DNA of 12,911 bases from Bacteriovoracaceae bacterium UBA2428 (GTDB lineage: Bacteria; Bdellovibrionota; UBA2428): contig DDRA01000135.1 of the NCBI GenBank assembly GCA_002343545.1, forward strand, positions 11,245-24,155, written 5' to 3'. Shown here one piece after another: positions 959 to 12,911 of this stretch. A program made the translations under genes and the position numbers. Numbering within the stretch: position 1 is the first letter of the stretch; each line of letters opens with the position of its first letter. A model generated the notes under the pieces. The model did no database searches. It had not been told where the DNA came from and saw nothing but the letters and a program-made list of their open reading frames with translations.

Positions 959-3499
959 TTACTTAGGCCCGACCTGCGAAACGACCGAGGCTCCGCGCAA
1001 ATACTTGCGCGCGACCCGCACGACGTCCGCCGCCTTCACCGACTCGAGCTTCTTGGCGAACTCGAAATGTTCCTTCCATCCGAGACCGTAAACTTCGTCG
1101 AGCGCCATGCCCATGGCCTGGCCGCCCAGACGTTGTTGTTCGATCTCGTGGTTGCCGACGTAGAAACGCTGCGCGGACTTCCATTCGTCCTCGGGCAGTC
1201 CTTCGTCGCAAAGACGATCGATCTCTCGACGAAGCGCGGCCAAGGCCGTGTCGCGCTTGTCCGGGGCGGTGGCGATGTAGAAGCCAAAATAACCGGCGTC
1301 AAAGCCTTCCATGTGGGTCGGCGCGACCGTGTAGCAAAGCGAAAGCTTGTCACGAAGTTCCAGGAAGAGTCGGCCACCTTGGCCGCTCAACACGGCCGAA
1401 AGGCCGAGCAGAGCCCAACGATCTTTTTCGAAGAGCGTGCAGCTCGGGAAGCCGAGGAGGATATGGGTTTGCTCCTTGGGCAGCTTGGCCCCGACCGCCA
1501 CGTCGCGTGAAATCGCCTTGGCGGGCGTCCGTTTGAGCAATTTCGAGGTCCGGGCGAACTTGTGGGCGCCCAGAAACTTTTCGAGGGTTGCCTCGAGCGT
1601 TTCGCGCTCGATGTCGCCGACCACGGTGAGTACCATCGGCTGCGCAAGCATCTTACGGTGGTAAGCGATCAGATCGCGCGCGCCGAGTTTCTTGATGATC
1701 GCGGGCTCGCCCTGCGCGCGTCGGCCGTAAGAGTGCTTACCGAAGAGCGCCGCCGAGAAGAGTCGGGACGCCACGGAGCTGGGGTTGTCGTCCGAGCTTC
1801 GGATGTCTTGGAGGACGTGGCTACGGGCTTGATCGACGATTTCTTTGTCGAAGCTCGGTTCCAAGAGCGAAGCGGCGAAGAGCTCGAAGAGCGAATCGAA
1901 GTCGGCGGCGAGACCGTCTACGCTGAAGCCCCAGCTGTTGCGACCGTGGAAGGCGCTCAGGCTCGCGCTCGAGCGGTCCACGTGTTCCGAGACTTCGTCG
2001 CGCGTCCATACGCGCCCGTTCGAAGCCCGGCCGCCTTCGGTCACGCAGCGGGCCCACATGTTACCGATGCCAGATTGGCGATCGCCCTCTAGGCGTCCAC
2101 CGCCCAGGCCTGCTAGCCGGAGCGAGAAGATCGGCAGGTGCGTAACGGGCTTGCGCAGGACGGTCAGTCCGCGGAAGTTGAACTTCTCGACTTCGCCCGC
2201 CTTCGCGGCGGCTTTACGCGCGCGCGAAGGAGCCGCGGCTGGGATCGAGAGCGACGAAGGGATTTTTTCTCCTTCGGGGAAGATGCCGCCGAAGTGGGCG
2301 CACGAAGGATCGAGGTACTGGCGCTTCACGCGCTCGATGTCGTCGATCGAAAGACGACGGACCGCGGCTTGGTAACGCTCGTCGAGACCGACGTCGCCGG
2401 CCACCGACTCGCAGCTACCGAAGCGCTCGGCCAGGCCGTCCACCGTTTCCTTGGAGTAGGTCGCCGTCGAGAGCAGGTTCTTGCGGGCCTTCTCGAGCTC
2501 GGCCTCGATCGTCGGTTTGTCGAGCAGGCCACGGAGCTCCGTGAGGATGCGCGGCATCTTGGCCGCGAGACCTTTCGGTCCGCGGAAGACGATGCCGAAG
2601 GATCCGGCTTCCTTGGGCGTCCAACATCCCGCGCCCGTGTCGCGCACGAGCTGTTCGTCGTTCACGAGTTTACGCACGAGACGCGAGCTCTCGCCTTGGC
2701 CCAGGATGAGGGCGAGCGCGTCGAGGGCCGCCGCGTCGGGGTGATCCGCGCCCACGGACTTCCAGCCCAGGTGCACGATCGCGTCGGGCGAGGAGTGGTG
2801 GCGGAAGCCCGAGGCGCCGGCCGCGCCCGCGGGACGGGAAGGCCGCGCGCCGGGAATGGGACCGGGAGGCATCTTCGAGAAGAGCCGTTCGCAGCTGTCG
2901 CGTAGATGGTTTTCGTCGAAGTCGCCCGCCACCACGAGAAAGAGGTTCGAAGCGTTGTAGTGCTTCTTGTACTCGCGCATGAGCGTCTCGCGCGACATGT
3001 TCGCGACGACTTCGGAGAAGCCGATCACGGGTCGGCTGTAGGCGTGCGACCCGAAGAGGCTCGAGCGGATGAGATCCGAGGCGATCGCGCCGGGCATGTC
3101 GTTGCGGCGGCGGATTTCCTCGAGCACGACTTCGCGCTCGCGGCCGAGCTCTTCGTCGTCGACGATCGAGTGCTGGAGCGAGTCGGCGAGAATATCGAGC
3201 CCGGCCTCGAGGTGTTTCGACGCGAGGGTCATGTGCATGACCGTGTGATCGTAGCTCGTGTAGGCGTTCAGGTCCCCGCCCATGCTTTCGATCTCGCGCG
3301 CGATGGCGCCGACTTGGCGGCGTTCGGTACCCTTGAAGAGCAGGTGCTCGAAAAGGTGCGCGAGTCCCGCGATGTCTTCGGTCTCGTCGGCCGCGCCGAA
3401 CTTGATCCAGCCCTGGAGCGCCACGACGGGCGAAGTCCGGCTGGGAATGCGCAGAAGTTTGAGTCCGTTGGAGAGGGTCAGTGTTTCGCATAGAGACAT
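959..3499 (-). CDS. M16 family zinc metalloprotease, fused two-half form
   Basis: The protein has 846 residues, about twice a single M16B subunit (about 420), and reads as two M16 halves joined by an Ala/Arg/Lys-rich linker near residues 418-440. The first half has the inverted zinc motif HLFEH at residues 48-52 and a downstream VVLEEI around residues 124-129, whose second glutamate is the probable third zinc ligand. GQGESSRL follows in the second domain of that half. The second half (about 440-846) keeps the fold-type signature GQGGRLFLELRDKLSLCY but has no HxxEH, so it is probably the non-catalytic half that closes the peptide chamber. No signal peptide or membrane segment is visible, which suggests a cytoplasmic peptidase, although some relatives are exported. 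The ATG at 3497-3499 is preceded by GAGGG about 4 bases upstream. It starts 91 bases from the divergent hemW-grpE gene and leads into the dehydrogenase gene. The substrate cannot be inferred. Confidence 0.93.
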   Translation of the reverse strand: MSLCETLTLSNGLKLLRIPSRTSPVVALQGWIKFGAADETEDIAGLAHLFEHLLFKGTERRQVGAIAREIESMGGDLNAYTSYDHTVMHMTLASKHLEAGLDILADSLQHSIVDDEELGREREVVLEEIRRRNDMPGAIASDLIRSSLFGSHAYSRPVIGFSEVVANMSRETLMREYKKHYNASNLFLVVAGDFDENHLRDSCERLFSKMPPGPIPGARPSRPAGAAGASGFRHHSSPDAIVHLGWKSVGADHPDAAALDALALILGQGESSRLVRKLVNDEQLVRDTGAGCWTPKEAGSFGIVFRGPKGLAAKMPRILTELRGLLDKPTIEAELEKARKNLLSTATYSKETVDGLAERFGSCESVAGDVGLDERYQAAVRRLSIDDIERVKRQYLDPSCAHFGGIFPEGEKIPSSLSIPAAAPSRARKAAAKAGEVEKFNFRGLTVLRKPVTHLPIFSLRLAGLGGGRLEGDRQSGIGNMWARCVTEGGRASNGRVWTRDEVSEHVDRSSASLSAFHGRNSWGFSVDGLAADFDSLFELFAASLLEPSFDKEIVDQARSHVLQDIRSSDDNPSSVASRLFSAALFGKHSYGRRAQGEPAIIKKLGARDLIAYHRKMLAQPMVLTVVGDIERETLEATLEKFLGAHKFARTSKLLKRTPAKAISRDVAVGAKLPKEQTHILLGFPSCTLFEKDRWALLGLSAVLSGQGGRLFLELRDKLSLCYTVAPTHMEGFDAGYFGFYIATAPDKRDTALAALRREIDRLCDEGLPEDEWKSAQRFYVGNHEIEQQRLGGQAMGMALDEVYGLGWKEHFEFAKKLESVKAADVVRVARKYLRGASVVSQVGPK

Positions 3500-3590
3500 A
3501 GACCCTCTATTCTTTCACGTTCGCGGAAGGCGTGGAAGGCGGCCGGGCTTCTCGTTTTGACGCCCTTGGCGAGCGCGCTATAAGGCCCCC
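3500..3590. other. Divergent intergenic spacer between the M16 peptidase and hemW-grpE
   Basis: This 91-base spacer must hold the promoters of both divergent units. On the plus strand it contains a strong sigma-70 type promoter (listed separately). On the minus strand I see only the Shine-Dalgarno GAGGG close to the peptidase ATG and no convincing -35/-10 pair. I looked for a CIRCE operator (TTAGCACTC / GAGTGCTAA) and found none. Confidence 0.7.
3557..3584 (+). promoter_or_regulatory. Sigma-70 type promoter of the hemW-grpE-dnaK-dnaJ operon
   Basis: TTGACG at 3557-3562 and TATAAG at 3579-3584 are separated by 16 bases; each matches the sigma-70 consensus at five of six positions. Transcription would be expected to begin about seven bases after the -10 box, at about 3591, which is the first base of the GTG start codon. 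The transcript would then be leaderless or nearly so. The only Shine-Dalgarno-like sequence (AAGG, 3582-3585) overlaps the -10 box and would not be transcribed from this promoter. No heat-shock sigma-32 consensus is evident. Confidence 0.55.
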
Positions 3591-5426
3591 GTGTCGTCTT
3601 CCCTCGGCCTCTACCTTCATGCCCCATTTTGCGTGCATAAATGCGGGTATTGCGACTTCAATTCCTGGGCCGAGGAGCGTCGCGAGCCCATGGAACGCTG
3701 GGCGCGAGCCATGAAGCGCCAAGTCGAGTATTGGTCACCGCGTTTGCGCGACCGCGGGATTCGGATCGAGACCGCGTTCTTCGGGGGAGGCACGCCGAGC
3801 CTCTTGCCCAACGATATTCTGCGCGAACTCGGAGAAACGCTTCGCGGCGCCTTCGATTGGTCGCCTGGCTTCGAGTGGAGCGTCGAGTGCAATCCCGAGA
3901 CGCTCGACCGCGAAAAGCTCGGGGCGTTACGCGACATGGGCGCGACTCGCCTTTCGATGGGGCTGCAAAGTTTTCAGGACGCCCATCTCGAGCGTCTGGA
4001 GCGGAGAGCGCGCCGTGGTCACAACCTCCGGGCGCTCGAGCTCGTGGCCCGCGATTGGAGTGGGCCCTGGTCCGGCGACCTCATGTTCGGCCTCCCTGGT
4101 CAGAGTCTCGTGGAATGGGAAGAAGATTTGGCACTTCTCCTGGGGTTCGGACCCGGGCACGTTTCCGCCTACCAGCTCACATTGACGACGGAACGCGCCA
4201 AGAACTGGCGTCAGCCCGGCGAGGAACGTCTCCTGGAGATGTTCGATCGCACGGAAGAGTTGTGCGCCGCCGCGGGGCTGCCGCGTTACGAGGTCTCCAA
4301 TTTCGCCCGTCCGGGGCGTGAGTGCCGCCACAATCTTCGCTACTGGAAGATGCTCCCTTTCTTGGGACTCGGCCCGGGCGCGGCCGGGGTTCTGCCGCCC
4401 GGCCTGGCGCCCAAGGCGCCGGGCGGTTTCGGAGCCCACCAAAGGAACCCCGAGTCCTTCGAGAAATGGGAGGCCATGGCCGGGACGCCCCGGGAAGAGT
4501 TGGCGCTGACGACCCGTAGCCCGCTCGAGCACGCCGAAGAGATTTTGCTGATGGGCCTGCGTTTGCCGGGGGGCGTGGAACTCGAGCGTTTTGGGCCGGT
4601 CGCTGACCTGCTCGAGACCTTGCCGCAAGACCCCCGTTTTCGGGACTTCCTTGAAATCCGATCCGGCGGTCAAGCACTTGAAAATAAAAGAAAAAATCTG
4701 GCCGTCACGGAGGCCGGACTTCGGATCCTGGACGGGCTTTTTCCAAAGATTTTCGAGCTTTTGGAAAGTTCCGGAAAACTTTCCCCCGCAAACCTTGACT
4801 CGGCTCGCTTCGACACCAAGTTTTCAGAGATGTCGGAATTCACGGAAAACCCCGCAGATTTCAAGGAAGAGAACGGCCCGGCCGAAGCTCAAGATCCCGC
4901 CGCGGCGTCGCCTTCGGATGAAGCGATGCCCGCCGCGGCCGATGGTCTCGCCGGCGAGGCGGCGCTCGAGGAGTGGAAGAACAAGGTTTCCTACCTCGCG
5001 GCCGAGATCGAGAACATGCGCAAGCGTTTCGTGCGCGAGAAGACGGAAGTCGTCAAATACGCGAACGAGGAGCTCATCAAGACGCTCCTCCCCGTCGTCG
5101 ACAATCTGTTCCTCGCGGTCAAGGCCATGAAGGACTCCGAGTCGAAGCTCGACGCTACGGTGCGCGAGAACTCGGTCGTGAACAATCTCTTCAAGGGCGT
5201 CGACATGACGCTCAAACACTTCGAGTCCACGCTCGAGCAGATCGGCGTGAAAGCCGTTCATTCCGAAGGCCAGGCCTTCGATCCGACCGTGCACGAAGCC
5301 GTCGGCCAAGCCTCGGACCCGACCCACAAAGACAACCACATCAGCTCCGTGCTCCAGCGCGGATGGACCCTCCACGGCCGCGTCATCCGACCGGCCCGCG
5401 TTTTCGTGAACAAACTTTCTTCGTGA
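3591..5426 (+). CDS. hemW-grpE: HemW heme chaperone (radical SAM) fused in frame to GrpE
   Basis: This single frame of 611 codons encodes two normally separate proteins. Residues 1 to about 390 are Hem[18 protein letters not shown] carries the 4Fe-4S motif C14-x3-C18-x2-C21 followed by D-F, the HemW pattern, whereas HemN has a further Cys. The radical SAM motif GGGTPS is at 65-70, the HNLRYW motif typical of HemW at 247-252, and GLGPGAAG around 259-266. A typical HemW C-terminal piece ([14 protein letters not shown]) ends near residue 390. HemW delivers heme to respiratory enzymes. Residues 391-413 resemble no domain. From Met414 the rest is a full GrpE, the nucleotide-exchange factor of DnaK. 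The GTG start is chosen because HemW proteins begin only a few residues before the LYxHxPFC strand and no in-frame ATG occurs before residue 34. The hemW-grpE order is the common neighbourhood with hrcA missing. It may be a true fusion, two proteins made by internal initiation at 4830, or a sequencing error that removed a stop codon. Confidence 0.9.
4663..4860 (+). other. HemW/GrpE junction, AT-richer segment with homopolymer runs
   Basis: Between the last recognisable HemW domain and the body of GrpE the base composition changes: there is an A-rich tract at 4681-4696 including six consecutive A at 4691-4696, then T- and A-rich codons up to about 4860, in contrast to the GC-rich flanks. The encoded residues 391-413 have no recognisable fold. 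A stop codon TGA exists at 4796-4798 but in the frame two bases offset from the coding frame, so one indel upstream would separate the two proteins. The segment therefore looks like a former intergenic or poorly constrained region that is now translated. Confidence 0.6.
4740..4784 (+). repeat. Two overlapping inverted repeats (mutually exclusive hairpins) at the HemW/GrpE junction
   Basis: Inverted repeat A pairs TTTCCAAA (4740-4747) with TTTGGAAA (4760-4767), eight perfect base pairs and a 12-base loop. Inverted repeat B pairs GGAAAGTT (4763-4770) with AACTTTCC (4777-4784), eight perfect base pairs and a six-base loop; its loop region includes the palindrome TTCCGGAA (4769-4776). The two share GGAAA at 4763-4767, so an RNA can form only one of them at a time. 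They lie 46-90 bases upstream of the internal ATG of the GrpE part. No U-tract follows, so neither is a standard intrinsic terminator. Whether they do anything is unknown. Confidence 0.5.
4830..5426 (+). CDS. grpE: GrpE nucleotide exchange factor (possible separate product from an internal ATG within the fused frame)
   Basis: Starting at this in-frame ATG (residue 414 of the fused frame) gives a 198-residue protein beginning [10 protein letters not shown], the usual length and style of a free-standing GrpE. An acidic, Ala/Pro-rich disordered tail is followed by the long helical coiled coil ([20 protein letters not shown], about 460-479 in fused numbering), the helical bundle with [10 protein letters not shown] (497-506), and the beta domain with [11 protein letters not shown] (561-571) and [10 protein letters not shown] (597-606). 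GrpE dimers release ADP from DnaK, and dnaK begins 16 bases downstream. The bases before this ATG offer only a weak CAGAG and no good Shine-Dalgarno, unlike dnaK and lon. Independent initiation would therefore be weak or dependent on upstream translation, and the fused product is the direct reading. GrpE identity is certain; the separate start is the doubtful part. Confidence 0.55.
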
Positions 5427-5440
5427 AAGGAATTTAAGGA
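5426..5440 (+). promoter_or_regulatory. dnaK ribosome binding site region
   Basis: Two purine-rich Shine-Dalgarno candidates precede the dnaK ATG at 5443: AAAGGAA (5426-5432), which overlaps the last base of the grpE stop codon and ends ten bases before the ATG, and TAAGGA (5435-5440), only two bases before it. The first has workable spacing; the overlap with the grpE stop suggests translational coupling of GrpE and DnaK. Confidence 0.6.
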
Positions 5441-5442
5441 AT

Positions 5443-7383
5443 ATGGCAAAAGTTATCGGTATCGACCTCGGAACGACCAACTCGTGCGTGGCTATCCTCG
5501 AAGGCGGCCAGCCCAAGGTCATTCAAAACTCGGAAGGTGCGCGTACGACGCCCTCCATCGTGGGCTTTAACGCCCAGGGCGAGCGCCTCGTCGGCGCGAT
5601 CGCCAAGAACCAAGCCGTCACGAACCCGGACCGTACGGTCTTCGCGGTGAAGCGTCTTATCGGCCAAAAATTCGATTCGCCGCAAGTGCAACGACTCAAG
5701 GGTTCGCTCCCGTACAAGCTCGTCGCGGCTGACAACGGCGACGCGTGGGTCGAAGTCGACGGCAAGAAGTACTCGCCGCAAGAAGTTTCGGCCTTCATCC
5801 TCATGAAGATGAAGAAGACGGCCGAGGACTACCTCGGTGAACCCGTCACGGAAGCCGTCGTCACGGTTCCGGCCTACTTCAACGACGCCCAACGCCAAGC
5901 GACCAAGGACGCCGGCCGCATCGCGGGCATGAACGTCCTTCGTATCATCAACGAGCCCACGGCGGCTTCGCTCGCCTACGGCATGGACAAGGGCGGCAAG
6001 GACCGCAAGATCGCGGTCTTCGACTTGGGTGGCGGTACGTTTGACGTCTCGATCCTCGAGCTCGGCGACGGCGTCTTCGAAGTGAAAGCGACGAACGGCG
6101 ACACCTTCCTCGGCGGCGAAGACTTCGATCATCGCATCGTTCAGTGGATGGCCGACGAGTTCCAACGCCTCGAAGGCATCGACCTTCGCAAGGACAAGTT
6201 CTCGTTGCAACGTCTCAAGACGGAAGCCGAGAAGGCCAAGCACATGCTCTCCGAGTCCATGGAAGCGGAGATCAACCTGCCCTTCATCACGGCCGACCAG
6301 AACGGCCCGAAGCACTTGAACCTCAAGCTCTCGCGCGCCAAGTACGAAGCTCTCTGCGGCGATCTCATCGATCGTCTCGTGGCTCCCTGCGAGATCTGCC
6401 TCAAGGACTCGGGGCTCGCCAAATCCGAGATCGACGAAGTCATCTTGGTCGGCGGTATGACCCGCATGCCTAAAGTCCAAGAGAAGGTTCGCGAGATCTT
6501 CGGCAAGGAGCCCGGTAAGGGCGTGAACCCCGACGAAGTCGTCGCGGTCGGCGCGGCCGTTCAGGGTGGCGTGCTCAAGGGTGAAGTGAAGGATGTTCTC
6601 CTTCTCGACGTCACGCCGCTCAGCCTCGGCATCGAGACCCTCGGTGGCGTCTTCACGAAGCTCATCGAAAAGAACACGACGATCCCGTCCAAGAAGTCGC
6701 AAGTCTTCTCCACGGCGACCGACAACCAACCGGCCGTGAGCATCCACGTGCTGCAAGGCGAGCGCGAGCTCTCGCAGTACAACAAGACGCTCGGAAAGTT
6801 CGACCTGATGGGAATTCCGCCGGCTCCGCGCGGCGTTCCGCAGATCGAGGTGACCTTCGACATCGACGCGAACGGTATCGTGCACGTCTCCGCCAAGGAC
6901 ATGGGCACGGGTAAGTCGCAGTCGATCCAGATCACGGCGAACTCGGGCCTCTCGGAAGAAGAGATCAAGCGCATGGTCCGCGACGCCGAGGCGAACGCGG
7001 CCGAAGACAAGAAGAAGACGGAATCGATCCAGGTCCGCAACCAGCTCGACGGTCTCGTTTACCAAACCGAGAAGTCGATGACCGAGTTGGGCGCGAAGGT
7101 CGATGCTTCGCTGAAGGGCGAACTCGAGACGGCGATCACGGCCGCGAAGGCCGAGCTTGAGAAGGGCGACAAGGACGCGATGCAAGGCGCCCTCGACAAC
7201 CTCAACAAGCTCAACGCCAAGCTCGCCGAGCAGGTTTACGCCAACGCGCAGGCCCAAGGCGGCGCGGACGCGGCGGGCCAACAAGCTTCCGGGTCTTCGG
7301 AGCACGCCAAGTACGACGGTTCCGACGCTTCGGGCAACAAGAAGGACGACGACACGGTCGATGCGGACTTCAAAGAAGTCTAA
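5443..7383 (+). CDS. dnaK: Molecular chaperone DnaK (Hsp70)
   Basis: The 646-residue protein has the normal bacterial DnaK length. It is the ATP-driven cytoplasmic chaperone that binds exposed hydrophobic peptides, with DnaJ stimulating ATP hydrolysis and GrpE exchanging ADP. All three Hsp70 signatures are present: IDLGTTNS at 7-14, [14 protein letters not shown] at about 192-205, and [17 protein letters not shown] at about 332-348. The hydrophobic interdomain linker DVLLLDVTP is at about 384-392, followed by the beta-sandwich substrate-binding domain and helical lid, and the C-terminal [12 protein letters not shown] tail. An [11 protein letters not shown] motif is intact. The ATG is fixed by the canonical [10 protein letters not shown] start. 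It follows GrpE by 16 bases and precedes dnaJ by about 69 bases, forming one operon. No missing key residues are seen. Confidence 0.99.
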
Positions 7384-7447: not shown

Positions 7448-7452
7448 GTGTG

Positions 7453-8601
7453 ATGAGGAAGATGGCTGGCAAGCGCGACTATTACGAAGTTTTGGGAGTG
7501 GCGCGTACCGCCACGGCCGAAGAGATCAAGAAGGCTTACCGAAAGCTCGCGATCCAGTTTCATCCGGACAAGAATCCCGGCAACAAAGAGGCCGAGGAAA
7601 AATTCAAAGAAGCGGCCGAAGCCTACGAGGTTCTGGCCGACGATAACAAGCGCAAGGCCTACGATCAGTTCGGTCACGCCGGAGCCCAGGGCGGTGGTTT
7701 CGACTTCAGCCAGTTCGGTGGCGCCGGCGGGGCCGGTTTTTCGAACCTGAACGATCTTTTCGGCGACATCTTCTCGGAAGTCTTCGGCGCCGGTGGCCCG
7801 GGTGGTCGCGGCGGCCGGGGTGGGGTGCGTGGCCAGCGGGGCGCCGATCTTCGTTACAATCTTTCGGTGTCCTTCGAAGAAGCCGCTTTCGGCGTCGAGA
7901 AAACGATCCAGGTTCCGCGCGAGACGGCCTGCAAGACTTGTTCAGGCACGGGCGCTCGTCCGGGCACTTCGGCGGAAACCTGTGGCACCTGCCGTGGCGC
8001 GGGCGAGATTCGCTTTCAGCAAGGTTTCTTCACCCTCTCCAAGACGTGCCCGGATTGTTCGGGCAGCGGCCAGATCATCAAGAGCAAGTGCGGCGATTGC
8101 CGCGGTTCGGGCCGCAAGACCGAAACGACTCGCCTTCAGGTCAAGGTTCCGGCGGGTATCGATTCGGGGCAGCGGCTCAAGCTACGCGGCGAAGGCGAAG
8201 CGGGCACGATGGGCGCGCCGTCGGGCGATCTCTACGTCGTCATCGAAGTCGACGAGCATCCCTTTTTCCGCCGCGATGGCGTGGACGTGCATTGCTCCGT
8301 TCCGATCTCTTTTCCGCAGGCGGCGCTCGGGACCGAGATCGACGTTCCGACGCTCGGTGGCACGGTGAAGCTCAAGATTCCAGCCGGCACCCAGTCGAAC
8401 AAGCGCTTCCGTTTGAAGGCGAAGGGTATCGCGCAACTCGGCGGTCGCGACCGTGGGGATCAGTACGTCATGATCCAGGTCGAGGTTCCGTCCAAGTTAA
8501 CGAGCGAACAACGCCAGCTTTTGGAGCGCTTCGCCGCGATCGGCGGAGAAAGCTTTCCCGAGAGCCAATCCTTCCTCAAGAAAATGAAGGACTGGTTCTA
8601 G
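7453..8601 (+). CDS. dnaJ: Co-chaperone DnaJ (Hsp40, type A)
   Basis: The 382-residue protein from this ATG is a full-length class A J-protein, which delivers clients to DnaK and stimulates its ATPase. It has a J domain with RDYYEVLG and the catalytic HPD at residues 37-39, a long Gly/Phe-rich segment (about 72-125), and four complete CxxCxGxG zinc motifs with cysteine pairs at 160/163, 177/180, 199/202 and 213/216. The C-terminal substrate-binding and dimerisation domains end in LKKMKDWF. Three starts are possible: GTG 7450, ATG 7453 and ATG 7462. I prefer 7453 because GAGGG ends eight bases before it; the ATG at 7462 (giving [12 protein letters not shown]) has AGGA only two bases away but matches the family N terminus equally well. 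It is the last gene of the chaperone operon and converges on the prepilin-like gene. Confidence 0.97.
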
Positions 8602-8628: not shown

Positions 8629-9597
8629 CTAGCGACGGACGCAGACGATGCCCAAGATTGTCATGTCGGCCCAGGTGTTCGATATACAGCCGTTCGGTAC
8701 GGTGAGATTATTCTCTTGAGCTCCGCTCACCGAGAGCATGCATCCACTCAAAGTCCATCCGGTGGCGCCATTGCAGCCGATTCCGTAGAAACTCGAACCA
8801 TCCCAAGAAAACGCGGGTATCTCAACGAAGGGAGCTCTGACCTCCGACGAAGTCGAGGATCCGGGCGGCGCTGAAAGCACATACAATTCCGTGGAACTGG
8901 CCCACGTCGCGACCGGATTCGAAACACCGGGTGCGAGCGTCATGGGGTACGCGGCCTTCGTCATAAAGTCGACTTTCTTCGACGCGTAGATTCCCGTGAA
9001 ACGAACGCGAGCGGCGCTTGCCGTGACCACGGCTGTGGAATTAGCGGCTCCCCGACAGTCCACCACAAACTCGGAGGAGTCGGTGACAATCTCGAAGCGA
9101 AAAGGATTGGAGGCGTTCGACAGTGTCTTGGCGCCAATGGAGTCCTGCGACTTGGCCGCTTCCAGGGTCAAAGCCACCGAGTGTACGACGTGCCCCGGGA
9201 TCGAAGTCGTATCGGGAGCGATTCCCGCGACCGGCTCCAAGCTAAGCCCCGTCAAGGTGAGTCCCGCGCCCAGATCTAGTCCAGCGGCCGCGACCGTCGA
9301 TGAACCGAGTCGCAAAGACCCGAAGGACTCCGTCGCGGAAACCGTGCCCGTCGGTGAATACTTTGCCGCGGCCGTCCCCGCCGAGTTCCAAAAGGCGGTC
9401 GCGCACTTCGCTCGGTTGCCCAAGATCATGGCGACCGTCGATTTCAACGTCTCGAAATCGGCGGCATTACGAACGCTCGTCTGCCCCTTTTGCGTGCTCC
9501 TCATCATCGACGTAAATACGAGGGCCAACGTCCCCAAGAGGGCGCTGCTCACCAACACGGTAACGAGAGAAAAGCCGCGTCGACGCATGTCATTCAT
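8629..9597 (-). CDS. Prepilin-like protein with type IV pilin N-terminal signal, function unknown
   Basis: The 322-residue protein begins MNDMRRRGFSLVTVLVSS: a short basic leader, a glycine at residue 8 and then F-S-L followed by a hydrophobic helix to about residue 32. This is a prepilin-peptidase (PilD) site, predicting cleavage after Gly8 and assembly into, or association with, a type IV pilus or type II secretion pseudopilus. The usual glutamate at position +5 of the mature protein is a threonine, which is seen in some minor pilins and GspK-type tip subunits and argues against a major subunit. The rest is Ser/Thr/Ala-rich with six cysteines (65, 181, 275, 286, 304, 319), four of them in the last 50 residues, suggesting disulfides. 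I recognise no named family. The start could also be Met4 (9588). No strong Shine-Dalgarno is near; AGGAG lies 22 bases upstream. No other pilus gene is in the window. Confidence 0.8.
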   Translation of the reverse strand: MNDMRRRGFSLVTVLVSSALLGTLALVFTSMMRSTQKGQTSVRNAADFETLKSTVAMILGNRAKCATAFWNSAGTAAAKYSPTGTVSATESFGSLRLGSSTVAAAGLDLGAGLTLTGLSLEPVAGIAPDTTSIPGHVVHSVALTLEAAKSQDSIGAKTLSNASNPFRFEIVTDSSEFVVDCRGAANSTAVVTASAARVRFTGIYASKKVDFMTKAAYPMTLAPGVSNPVATWASSTELYVLSAPPGSSTSSEVRAPFVEIPAFSWDGSSFYGIGCNGATGWTLSGCMLSVSGAQENNLTVPNGCISNTWADMTILGIVCVRR

Positions 9598-9865
9598 GGA
9601 ACTCGAAGATAGCGGAATTCTCCTCTATCGGTGACGGATTTTTGAAAAAGTTCGACTCGTCCAGGTCCCTTACGAAGCCGAGTCCGTGCGGCGCAGGTGC
9701 ATTCCTCGTGCTTTGTTTTGGCTCGGCGAGCCAGGATCGCATGAGCGCGTTTACCTACTTGAGGCGGTGCTTTAGATAAGTCCTACCGATGCTTAGGCGC
9801 GCTCGATACGCGGGTGCCGACAGTCGTGCTTTCGGTTGCTAGGCCACGATGGTAGTCTTGCGCTC
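9598..9865. other. Intergenic region between divergent prepilin-like and LpoA-like genes
   Basis: This 268-base region should hold both divergent promoters. I see a weak plus-strand candidate, TTTACC (9750-9755) with TAGATA (9773-9778) at 17-base spacing, and no convincing minus-strand promoter. A short hairpin pairs TTTTGGCTC (9716-9724) with GAGCCAGGA (9728-9736), nine pairs including two G-U, loop GGC, without a U-tract on either strand. No small gene with good support was found; the TTG at 9836 could extend the downstream protein by ten residues. Confidence 0.5.
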
Positions 9866-11752
9866 ATGCTTAGTCTCGGAGTGCTGTTGTCTCGTTCCTT
9901 CGTGTTGGGATCCGCGATCCTGGGCGTCCCCATGGCGTTCGGCCAGGCCCAAGCGCCCGCTCCGATGCAACAGGCCCAGGACCCCGGCGCTACGCTTAAG
10001 CTTGCCCGCGAAAAATTCGATCGCGCGGAATACGCCGACGTTATCTCGAGCTTGAGCGCGATCCGCTCGCAGTCCCAAGAATCGGCGGCCCGTGGCGAGG
10101 CCATTCTTTTGACGGCCCGCGCGAACTATTCGCTGGGTAAACCGAAGGTCGCGCTCGATACGCTGGCCAAGGTTTCGGCCCGCGAAATCCCCGGTCCGAT
10201 GCGCGCCGACTTCTTCTCGTTCTGGGCGCGCGTCGCGGGCGAAGAGCGCCGTTGGCTGGAGTCGGCCCTCGCGATGCTCAAAGCCCGCGCGGAGCTCACC
10301 GACGCCGCGGCCCAGCGTGCGATCGAATCGAAGCTCTCCGAAATGATCGACGTCCAGATGAGCGAAGCGGACCTTTCGTTCCTCGCGAAGGAGTACCCGA
10401 CGCAGTTCCCGGCGAACAAAGTCCTCTATCGTTTGGCGACCCTGCGAATTTCGCGTGGCCAAAAAGTCGAGGCCGAGCAGGTTCTCGCTCAGCTCAAGGC
10501 GATCGCCCGTCCCGGAACGCCGGATTACACGAAGGCCGAACAGCTCGCGAACCGACTGGGCTCGCTCGAGACGGCGATGCCGCGCAAAGTGGGTCTCTTG
10601 CTGCCCTTGTCGGGCCCGCAGGAGTCGGCGGGTCGCGCGATTCGCATGGGCCTTGAACTCGCGATCGGGGAGATGTCCAAGGATCCGATCGAGATCGTGG
10701 CGGCCGATGCCGGGGACACCAAGGAAAGTGCGCTGCAGGGCTTGGAACGTCTGCTCTTCGACGAACGCGTCATGCTCGTCGTCGGCCCCGTTTCGGGCGA
10801 CCAAGCCGAGCTGGTGGCCGAGCGTGCCGGCCAGTTGGGCGTGCCGAATATCTCGCTTTCTCCGCGGCGCGGGATTCTCGAGAAAGGCTCGTCGGTCTTC
10901 CGCGTAGGCCTGACGCCGGAACGTCAGGTTCGCGCTCTGGTCGGTTATTCCTACGATCGTCTCGGGGCGCGCCGTTTCGCGATCCTCTTTCCGGAAGACG
11001 CCTTCGGTCGCGAGTTCGCGACGGAGTATTTTCGCATCGTTCAAGAATACGGCGCCGAAGTCACCGCGGCCGAGAGTTACGCGCCTTCGCAAGCCGACTT
11101 CAAGATTCCGGTCGAGAACATGACCGGAACGGGATTCCCGAACTGGCGTTCGAAAGAAGCCGAAGAACTTCGCAAGAAGCTCGACGAGCGTCTGGCCGGC
11201 ACCCGCAAGGCCACGAAGCGTGAGCTCGAGTCGGCCAAACCGGGCCCCATCGTCGACTTTGACGTCGTTTTCATTCCGGACTCCTTCCGGGCCCTGGGGC
11301 AGATCGTGCCGACCCTCCTTTATTCCAACGTGACGACGCCCAAGCTTTTGGGGCCGAATACCTGGAAGTCGAACCGCCTCCTGGAGCGCGCCGGACAGTA
11401 CTTGGATGGGGCTCTTTTTGTGGACATGTTTGCCGCGGAGCGCAATTCGAAAGCGTCTAAGGATTTCTTGAATCTCTTCCAGTCAAAACGCGGAACTTTA
11501 CCGAATTCTTTGAACGCTCTCGGCTACGACGTCGGGACGGCCTTGCGCTTGGCCTACGGAAACGAAAGTTCGCCCGCCTCGCGGGACGAGCTCCGGACGC
11601 GTCTCGAGGGCCTCGGCACTTTTGAGGGCGTTCTCGGGCAACACCGCTGGGACTCCGGGCGCGAAGTTCTCTCGGAACTGCAGCTTTTCGAAGTTCGCAA
11701 GGGCGCCTTCCACCACCTGAACGGCATTCAGATTAAGCGCCGCGACAACTAG
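9866..11752 (+). CDS. Periplasmic penicillin-binding-protein activator (LpoA-like) / type-1 periplasmic binding protein
   Basis: The 628-residue protein from ATG 9866 begins with a hydrophobic segment ending in GVPMAFGQAQA, a likely Sec signal peptide cleaved around AFG-Q. Residues about 35-235 are Ala/Leu/Arg-rich helices of TPR type. From about 238 (RKVGLLLPLSGPQESAGRAI) it has a type-1 periplasmic-binding fold: LVVGPVSGDQAELVAERAGQ, NISLSPRR and RFAILFPEDAFGREFA are the typical strands and turns. A charged helical insert (about 421-460) precedes DFDVVFIPDS. This architecture matches LpoA, the outer-membrane activator of class A penicillin-binding proteins, and related amino-acid-binding proteins. 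LpoA is a lipoprotein, but this protein has no cysteine at all, so it cannot be lipidated and would be soluble in the periplasm. The start is uncertain: TTG 9836 or GTG 9881 are alternatives (the latter gives MLLSRSFVLG, a better n-region), and none has a good Shine-Dalgarno. Activation of a PBP is inference; the fold is well supported. Confidence 0.8.
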   Translation: MLSLGVLLSRSFVLGSAILGVPMAFGQAQAPAPMQQAQDPGATLKLAREKFDRAEYADVISSLSAIRSQSQESAARGEAILLTARANYSLGKPKVALDTLAKVSAREIPGPMRADFFSFWARVAGEERRWLESALAMLKARAELTDAAAQRAIESKLSEMIDVQMSEADLSFLAKEYPTQFPANKVLYRLATLRISRGQKVEAEQVLAQLKAIARPGTPDYTKAEQLANRLGSLETAMPRKVGLLLPLSGPQESAGRAIRMGLELAIGEMSKDPIEIVAADAGDTKESALQGLERLLFDERVMLVVGPVSGDQAELVAERAGQLGVPNISLSPRRGILEKGSSVFRVGLTPERQVRALVGYSYDRLGARRFAILFPEDAFGREFATEYFRIVQEYGAEVTAAESYAPSQADFKIPVENMTGTGFPNWRSKEAEELRKKLDERLAGTRKATKRELESAKPGPIVDFDVVFIPDSFRALGQIVPTLLYSNVTTPKLLGPNTWKSNRLLERAGQYLDGALFVDMFAAERNSKASKDFLNLFQSKRGTLPNSLNALGYDVGTALRLAYGNESSPASRDELRTRLEGLGTFEGVLGQHRWDSGREVLSELQLFEVRKGAFHHLNGIQIKRRDN

Positions 11753-11863: not shown

Positions 11864-12911
11864 ATGTCGCTGACCCGAGACGCCGATGACATCATCATCC
11901 CCGATACCCTGCCCATGCTTCCGGTTCGGGATGTCGTCGTATTTCCCTTCATGATCTTGCCGCTCTTCGTAGGGCGCGAATCGTCGATCAAGGCGGTGAA
12001 CGAAGCCCTCGGGCGCGATCGTCTCATCTTCTTGTCGAGCCAGAAAGAGATCGGCGAAGACAATCCGGCGCCCGAAGGTATCTTCGGCATCGGCACCGTC
12101 GCCATGATCATGCGGATGCGCAAGCTTCCCGACGGTCGTATTAAGATTCTCGCGCAGGGTATCGCGAAAGCGTCGATCACCCAGTACGAGAGCAGCGCGC
12201 CGTTCTACACGGTCAAGATCGCCCGCATCGAAGAGACGGTGCGTCCGGAGCGCAAGGCCGAAGACGAGCAGCAGATGAAGGCCGTCAAGGAACAGCTCGA
12301 GAAGGTCATCAACCTCGGCAAGATGCTCTCGCCCGACATCCTGATGGTCGTCGAAGAGATCTCGGATCCGGGTCGTCTCGCCGACCTCGTGACTTCGAAC
12401 CTCGGTCTCAAGGTCAGCGAATCGCAAGAAATCCTCGAGACCCTCGATCCCTCCGAGCGTCTCATGAAGGTCCGCGAGATCCTCGCGAAGGAACTCGAAA
12501 TCCTCCAGATGCAGCAGAAGGTGAAGGGCCAATCGCGCGAAGACGCGGGCCGCAACCAACGCGAGCAGTTCCTGCGCGAACAGATGCGCGCCATCAAGAA
12601 CGAGCTCGGCGAGAACGACCCGCGCGCGGACGAGATCAACGAACTCCGCAACCGCGTCGAGAACGCGCCGATGACCGACGAAATCCGCGCCGAAGCCGTC
12701 AAGCAACTCGGCCGCCTGGAGCGCATGCACCCCGACGCTTCCGAAGCGACGATCGTGCGCACCTACCTCGATTGGCTCTGCGACTTGCCGTGGGCGAAGG
12801 CCTCGACGGACAAGCTCGACCTCGTCGAAGCCAAGAAGATCCTCGACGAAGACCATTTCGACCTCGAGAAGGTCAAGGACCGCATCCTCGAGTTCCTCGC
12901 CGTGCGCAAGC
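11864..12911 (+). CDS. lon: ATP-dependent protease Lon (LonA type), N-terminal part, cut by the window edge
   Basis: The first 349 codons are present of a protein usually about 780-820 residues. The start MSLTRDADDIIIPDTLPMLP leads into LPVRDVVVFPFMILPLFVGR, the conserved opening of the Lon substrate-binding (LAN) domain, which runs to about residue 205. It is followed by the helical coiled-coil region with REQFLREQMRAIKNELGE, diagnostic of LonA, and then LDWLCDLPWAKAS. The AAA+ module and the Ser-Lys protease domain lie outside the window, so their integrity is not known. Lon degrades misfolded and some regulatory proteins in the cytoplasm and is commonly induced by heat shock, consistent with the dnaK operon nearby, although no sigma-32-type promoter is visible. 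It lies 111 bases after the LpoA-like gene on the same strand and could be expressed separately or by readthrough. Confidence 0.97.
   Translation, partial: MSLTRDADDIIIPDTLPMLPVRDVVVFPFMILPLFVGRESSIKAVNEALGRDRLIFLSSQKEIGEDNPAPEGIFGIGTVAMIMRMRKLPDGRIKILAQGIAKASITQYESSAPFYTVKIARIEETVRPERKAEDEQQMKAVKEQLEKVINLGKMLSPDILMVVEEISDPGRLADLVTSNLGLKVSESQEILETLDPSERLMKVREILAKELEILQMQQKVKGQSREDAGRNQREQFLREQMRAIKNELGENDPRADEINELRNRVENAPMTDEIRAEAVKQLGRLERMHPDASEATIVRTYLDWLCDLPWAKASTDKLDLVEAKKILDEDHFDLEKVKDRILEFLAVRK

Follow-up and report, generated by a model that had tools for sequence, protein, structure and literature searches.

Background

For HemW, the passages of PMC10320005 that deal with this protein give two motifs, LYxHxPFCxxxCxxCxF and HNxxYW. 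For the grpE/dnaK operons of delta-proteobacteria, the relevant portion of PMC545781 describes sigma-32-type promoters in which a CTTGA-type first box and a CCCCAT-type second box precede the heat-shock genes, and an excerpt of PMC3464611 reports a Bdellovibrio factor with RpoH-annotated relatives that is without an RpoH box. Here we describe a locus of Bacteriovoracaceae bacterium UBA2428 in which hemW and grpE share one open frame; the window is the whole stretch of 12,911 nucleotides analysed. What is new in its sequence is a grpE promoter-like element placed inside the coding end of hemW.

A single open frame holds HemW and GrpE

The frame runs on the plus strand from a GTG at 3591 to a TGA at 5426, comprising 611 codons and no internal stop. 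It is not a chance open reading frame because it holds two full domains, and the initial annotation, which had proposed a single HemW-GrpE frame of this length, is borne out by matches of TIGR00539 and PF01025 above their cut-offs. The HemW half narrowly passes TIGR00539 over its whole length (209.0 bits; cut-off 205.4), matches Pfam Radical_SAM with 74.8 bits (cut-off 29.5), and contains the radical SAM cysteine motif LYxHxPFCxxxCxxCxF at residues 7-23 of the translation and the heme-binding motif HNxxYW as HNLRYW at residues 247-252. These features agree with its earlier description as a complete HemW, except that HemN_C (PF06969), the usual C-terminal domain of HemW, scores 16.7 bits, below its cut-off of 24. 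The homologue P0003 is likewise below it (20.0 bits), with the proteins of G002, the nearest relative with DNA, and P0002 above; we read the low score as divergence of a short domain that leaves HemW membership probably unaffected. The GrpE half matches PF01025 with 153.4 bits (cut-off 25.8) across residues 456-608 of the whole frame, and falls under the cut-offs of most single NCBIfam GrpE equivalogs. The source genome, a draft of 185 contigs and 74% completeness, has one GrpE match and one further HemW-type match, which is remote (25% identity). With dnaK directly after the grpE part, the gene order is hemW-grpE-dnaK-dnaJ (Table 1).

Table 1. Features of the hemW-grpE-dnaK-dnaJ locus, in positions of the window
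Feature	Position	Strand	Basis
Probable hemW promoter, TTGACG-N16-TATAAG, ending 6 nt before GTG 3591	3557..3584	+	By eye
hemW part, residues 1-411	3591..4823	+	TIGR00539, Radical_SAM; homology of relatives up to F411
grpE promoter-like element, TTGAC-N16-CCAAGTTT, inside the end of hemW	4795..4823	+	Pattern counts, own-genome match
Six-base spacer, two sense codons	4824..4829	+	Stop codon at this place in G002
grpE part, residues 414-611	4830..5426	+	PF01025, 156.8 bits for 4830-5423 scored alone (cut-off 25.8); ATG 4830 is the start of separate GrpE homologues
dnaK	5443..7383	+	TIGR02350, 966.1 bits
dnaJ	7450..8601	+	TIGR02349, 453.3 bits

Two structure models were used for different parts of the protein. 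The one built from an alignment of HemW rows is mostly confident over residues 1-393, models GrpE poorly and was used for the HemW half; a fold search with it returned HemN 1OLT as the top match. The one built from a mixed HemW and GrpE alignment (A3) is confident over about residues 460-610 and was used for the GrpE half and the linker only, the alignment having put the second half of HemW onto GrpE. Residues from about 416 to 450 have low confidence in both. A plausible picture from these models is thus one of two working domains on a tether, with a linker of about 50 residues predicted to be disordered.

Among the neighbouring genes, an 846-residue protein encoded divergently from hemW (959-3499, minus strand) matches both M16 peptidase domains twice each, and by eye an M16-like gene also lies near the hemW-grpE cluster in G001, G002 and G003. 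Beyond dnaJ, the product of 8629-9597 (minus strand) has a prepilin-like N-terminus (RRRGFSLVTVLVSSALLG) that falls short of the Pfam N_methyl cut-off (14.7 against 21.2 bits), and that of 9836-11752 (plus strand) has a periplasmic-binding domain (PF13458) with a weaker LppC match; a gene similar to the latter comes after dnaJ in G047, again by eye.

The joined frame in related genomes

A protein search with all 611 residues, which scored the 7999 candidates with most shared words, gave 6817 matches; among the best 120, P0001 alone has both domains. This is the window's own protein, 578 residues long as called and found on two contigs, the longest of 119,152 bases, the window's contig having 44,680. 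We also searched with words from residues 412-611 under length limits that exclude ordinary GrpE proteins. Of 1665 candidates, two matched: one was P0001, and the other, P0121, is a GrpE protein that is 373 residues long, bears long extensions and lacks HemW. Resting on exact shared words, this second search would pass over distant fusions that have none. Thus, neither the GrpE-directed search of 1665 candidates nor the best 120 of the 6817 matches contained a HemW-GrpE protein other than the window's own. Nor did we find a description of such a fusion, or of a grpE promoter within hemW, in the literature covered, from which most subscription journals fall outside; the earlier remark that no HemW-GrpE fusion had been described agrees with these results.

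At the DNA level, 57 of the 58 other genomes searched had a match, and the 57 loci read came to 53 after removal of four duplicates: 42 with both genes, seven with HemW only and four with GrpE only. At least 80 loci of named relatives, at 30-42% identity, were left out of the junction comparison. The two genes lie on one strand in all 42 loci that hold both and are fused in none of these, such that the joined architecture, for which the initial annotation had suggested a search of relatives, is seen in one genome. In 35 of the 42, no more than 232 nt lie between the hemW stop and the opening of the GrpE frame, a gap too small for hrcA between the two genes, which runs against the earlier statement that hrcA usually lies there. 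Furthermore, at least nine HemW proteins have a longest contig equal in size to that of a separate GrpE protein (P0002/P0124, P0003/P0122, P0004/P0133, P0008/P0138, P0009/P0143, P0016/P0144, P0032/P0128, P0069/P0147 and P0075/P0140), and from this equality we infer that each pair shares one contig. A recurrent fusion was considered for G053, G039, G019, G047 and G009, whose HemW matches lie in open frames of 553-622 residues, and was rejected when the DNA showed separate frames in all five.

The junction and the loss of a stop codon

The homology of HemW to its relatives reaches F411 (4821-4823). In G002 (54% identity), hemW reads ..PTNLDSASFDPIF and then TAG, which stands right after the last conserved hemW codon and three bases before the grpE ATG, with both genes in one frame. 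The stop codon that had been expected near 4796 in relatives therefore lies farther downstream, directly behind the conserved end of HemW. G002 is one of three loci (with G014 and G047) where the GrpE frame opens directly behind the hemW stop in the same frame, so that one codon alone parts the two genes. In G001 the hemW stop overlaps the grpE ATG, and in G003 a stretch of 611 nt separates the hemW stop from the opening of the GrpE frame, with msrA (PF01625, 224.3 bits) between them on the other strand. Judged from these junctions, the fusion looks like the loss of a stop codon in one lineage; the stop would have been lost from the six-base interval that separates the conserved end of HemW from the grpE ATG. 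Codon reassignment or a frameshift is unneeded as a cause of the joined frame, both parts being in one frame by homology.

A promoter-like element in the coding end of hemW

In close relatives, the C-terminal tail of HemW has the form LDSxxFDPxF. Across 74 HemW proteins (P0002-P0075), 44 end in (L/I)D..D(P/T).F plus 0-7 residues, and an alignment of 32 sequences has D408 and F411 in every one. At the DNA level this tail is TTGACTC...CCCATNTTT, and on the strength of the sequence we conclude that the tail is largely a translated promoter-like sequence. The window's element starts 35 bases before the grpE ATG at 4830, and its second box is CCAA, the commoner form being CCAT. The pattern TTGAC-N16-CCA has its source in a first count of sigma-32-like sites over 7+6 fixed positions, which gave a weak excess (a mean of 8.8 matches against 7.9) and in which the best site of the window fell at another position. 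Of 47 regions (46 loci plus the window), 17 have TTGAC-N15-18-CCA(T/A) ahead of the GrpE domain, 16 of these with a gap of exactly 16, and 30 are without it; the figure is indicative, as the pattern was derived from the same loci on which it was counted and the relatives are not independent. As controls, 1000 letter shuffles gave a mean of 0.27 and a maximum of 3, the reversed sequences 0 and the reverse complement 2.

The position of the 17 elements relative to hemW varies: four lie inside it (the window, G001, G002 and G036), two have the hemW stop within the first box, ten lie beyond the stop, and one belongs to a locus without hemW. The hemW of G003 is without the tail, yet CTTGACTC stands 35 nt before its grpE ATG, with a degenerate second box; CTTGACTC being retained there, the promoter can be told apart from whatever the protein tail may do. 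TTGAC and the ATG are 35 nt apart in the window, G002, G003, G036 and G043 and 34 nt apart in G001, and the start codon is farther away in the other loci that have the element, so leaderless starts would not be general in the phylum, which the names attached to P0007, P0020 and P0046 indicate to be Bdellovibrionota. Two forms of overlap may be described more closely: in G036 (locus L124), from another family of the phylum, the last hemW codons hold TTGACA-N16-CCAT 35 nt from a grpE ATG that the hemW stop overlaps, and in G009 (L035) and G042 (L128) the TGA stop of hemW sits inside the TTGAC box.

Start of free GrpE and transcription signals

Separate GrpE homologues begin at the equivalent of the methionine at 4830, and seven of the nine best GrpE matches start with Met-Ser as found there. 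The usual spacing of promoter and start would put the transcript start at or beside this ATG. No good Shine-Dalgarno match precedes 4830 (3/6 to AGGAGG), and with the 35-nt spacing this makes leaderless initiation at 4830 the natural reading. Internal initiation at this codon, offered earlier as an alternative to a working fusion, is well supported by the equivalent start of the homologues and the conserved promoter-like element 35 nt upstream.

At hemW itself, a scan for consensus promoters, in which the second hexamer must end in T, found none and did not report the site read by eye (Table 1). There are no terminator-like sites on the plus strand in 3450-5500, and two on the minus strand against 2.9 in shuffles.

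Other heat-shock genes and the sigma factor

In the source genome, a looser version of the element, TTGACN16CCANGTTT, a pattern chosen after both of its sites had been seen, matches twice, here and before the only detected hsp20, with none in the backwards control. The pattern CTTGA-N13-18-CCCAT has 28 sites there against 11 in that control, and CTTGACTC-N10-14-CCCANNTT has none. G001 has two copies of hsp20, one with TTGACTC..CCCATGTTT and the other without a match. The groES and clpB genes of G000, G001 and G002 gave no match to the element; by eye, CCCCATCTTTAGGGC stands before the ATG of the G002 clpB. Thus, among the grouped heat-shock genes besides grpE, hsp20 alone shows an element of the TTGAC-N16-CCA(T/A) type. 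The genome encodes a factor of the sigma-32 family (NF005143, 279.1 against 241 bits), which stays below the narrower RpoH model TIGR02392 (285.5 against 323.1). A further stress gene begins at 11864-12910 on the plus strand of the window; it encodes a Lon protease, whose initial stretch included here scores 260.5 bits with TIGR00763, and no TTGAC-N16-CCA element precedes it.

Discussion

The explanation that we favour, and hold to be somewhat probable, is that the loss of a stop codon joined two genes and an internal heat-shock promoter in the end of hemW was kept, giving a locus with two products, HemW-GrpE and free GrpE. Under this explanation, long transcripts from the hemW promoter would yield the fusion, two folded domains with about 50 disordered residues, whereas grpE would keep its own heat-shock promoter inside the last hemW codons, and heat-shock transcripts beginning at or beside ATG 4830 would yield free GrpE by leaderless initiation. 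In the relatives, termination-reinitiation, a process treated in part of PMC6728339, could let ribosomes that have finished hemW begin anew on grpE; in the window, such ribosomes would read on and produce the fusion. The sequences show the joined frame with its two domains, separate genes in the 42 relatives' loci and a conserved promoter-like sequence, whereas we infer that the promoter is used, which sigma factor serves it, that the start is leaderless and that both proteins are made.

The main alternative to a genuine fusion is a sequence error, in which the six-base spacer of the real genome contains a stop codon, as in its relatives, and the joined frame is an artefact of metagenome assembly. 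The draft state of the genome, the uniqueness of the fusion in the GrpE-directed protein search and the stop found here in relatives all speak for it, and a difference of one base there could suffice. On the other side, the same protein is found on two contigs, one of 119,152 bases and the window's of 44,680, and HemW homology and GrpE share one frame right up to the spacer. The error suspected by the initial annotation is weakened by the second contig and survives as a base error within the six bases; we consider it unlikely, if worth keeping in mind.

The remaining alternatives accept the frame and differ in what it is for. The fusion could be a selected bifunctional protein, HemW being tethered to GrpE for heme delivery at DnaK and the joined form being the main working form of both. 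That both domains keep their signatures, that the linker is predicted to be disordered and that the genome has a single GrpE match would fit such a protein; its restriction to one genome, with none of the 42 relatives' loci fused, the separate start and promoter-like element kept by grpE, and the HemW passages of PMC10320005, which mention neither DnaK nor GrpE, all weigh against it. We hold it to be improbable, and the tethering of HemW to DnaK proposed earlier is left without comparative support. Just as improbable in our estimate is a silent joined frame, with hemW hardly transcribed into grpE, or the fusion made and cut, and only free GrpE mattering in practice. The start and promoter-like element of grpE are consistent with this; in contrast, no terminator-like site lies on the plus strand in 3450-5500, and translation of HemW to its end must run on into GrpE.

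Returning to the favoured reading of a stop loss with two products, a stronger form of it, which we think doubtful, would have one frame with two outputs set by temperature: in ordinary growth mainly HemW-GrpE, bringing heme delivery to DnaK, and upon heat shock free GrpE through the internal leaderless start. Were this true, the stop loss would have created a bifunctional co-chaperone together with a means of switching between its fused and free forms. More generally, the locus shows how two genes can fuse while the second is preserved, its promoter and start being placed within the coding end of its upstream neighbour. Provided that both products exist, it is also a natural experiment on whether a co-chaperone, likely an essential one, tolerates a partner of 45 kDa. 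A wider point, which can be tested in many genomes, is that a conserved protein tail may exist because it spells a promoter.

Compared with known systems, the HemW half resembles the radical SAM heme chaperone HemW of TIGR00539 in its whole-length match above the curated cut-off and its HNxxYW motif, and differs in continuing in frame into GrpE and in its HemN_C score below the cut-off. Likewise, the GrpE half resembles the nucleotide exchange factor of DnaK (PF01025; PDB 4ani, 1dkg) as a full domain before dnaK-dnaJ, and differs in having no stop codon to part it from the preceding gene. The promoter-like element may be akin to the delta-proteobacterial sigma-32-type promoters, as far as the cited portion of PMC545781 describes them, its two boxes before a heat-shock gene recalling the CTTGA-type and CCCCAT-type boxes, with CCAA as the second box in the window; it differs from them in lying within a coding sequence, at the end of hemW, and in having its second box only about 10 nt from the start codon. 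Finally, the alr-groEL1 operon of M. tuberculosis, as presented in part of PMC5335608, shares with this locus a promoter internal to a coding sequence (rimI in that case) and ends in groES-groEL1; its promoter drives tsaD, however, and a joined frame does not form part of that description.
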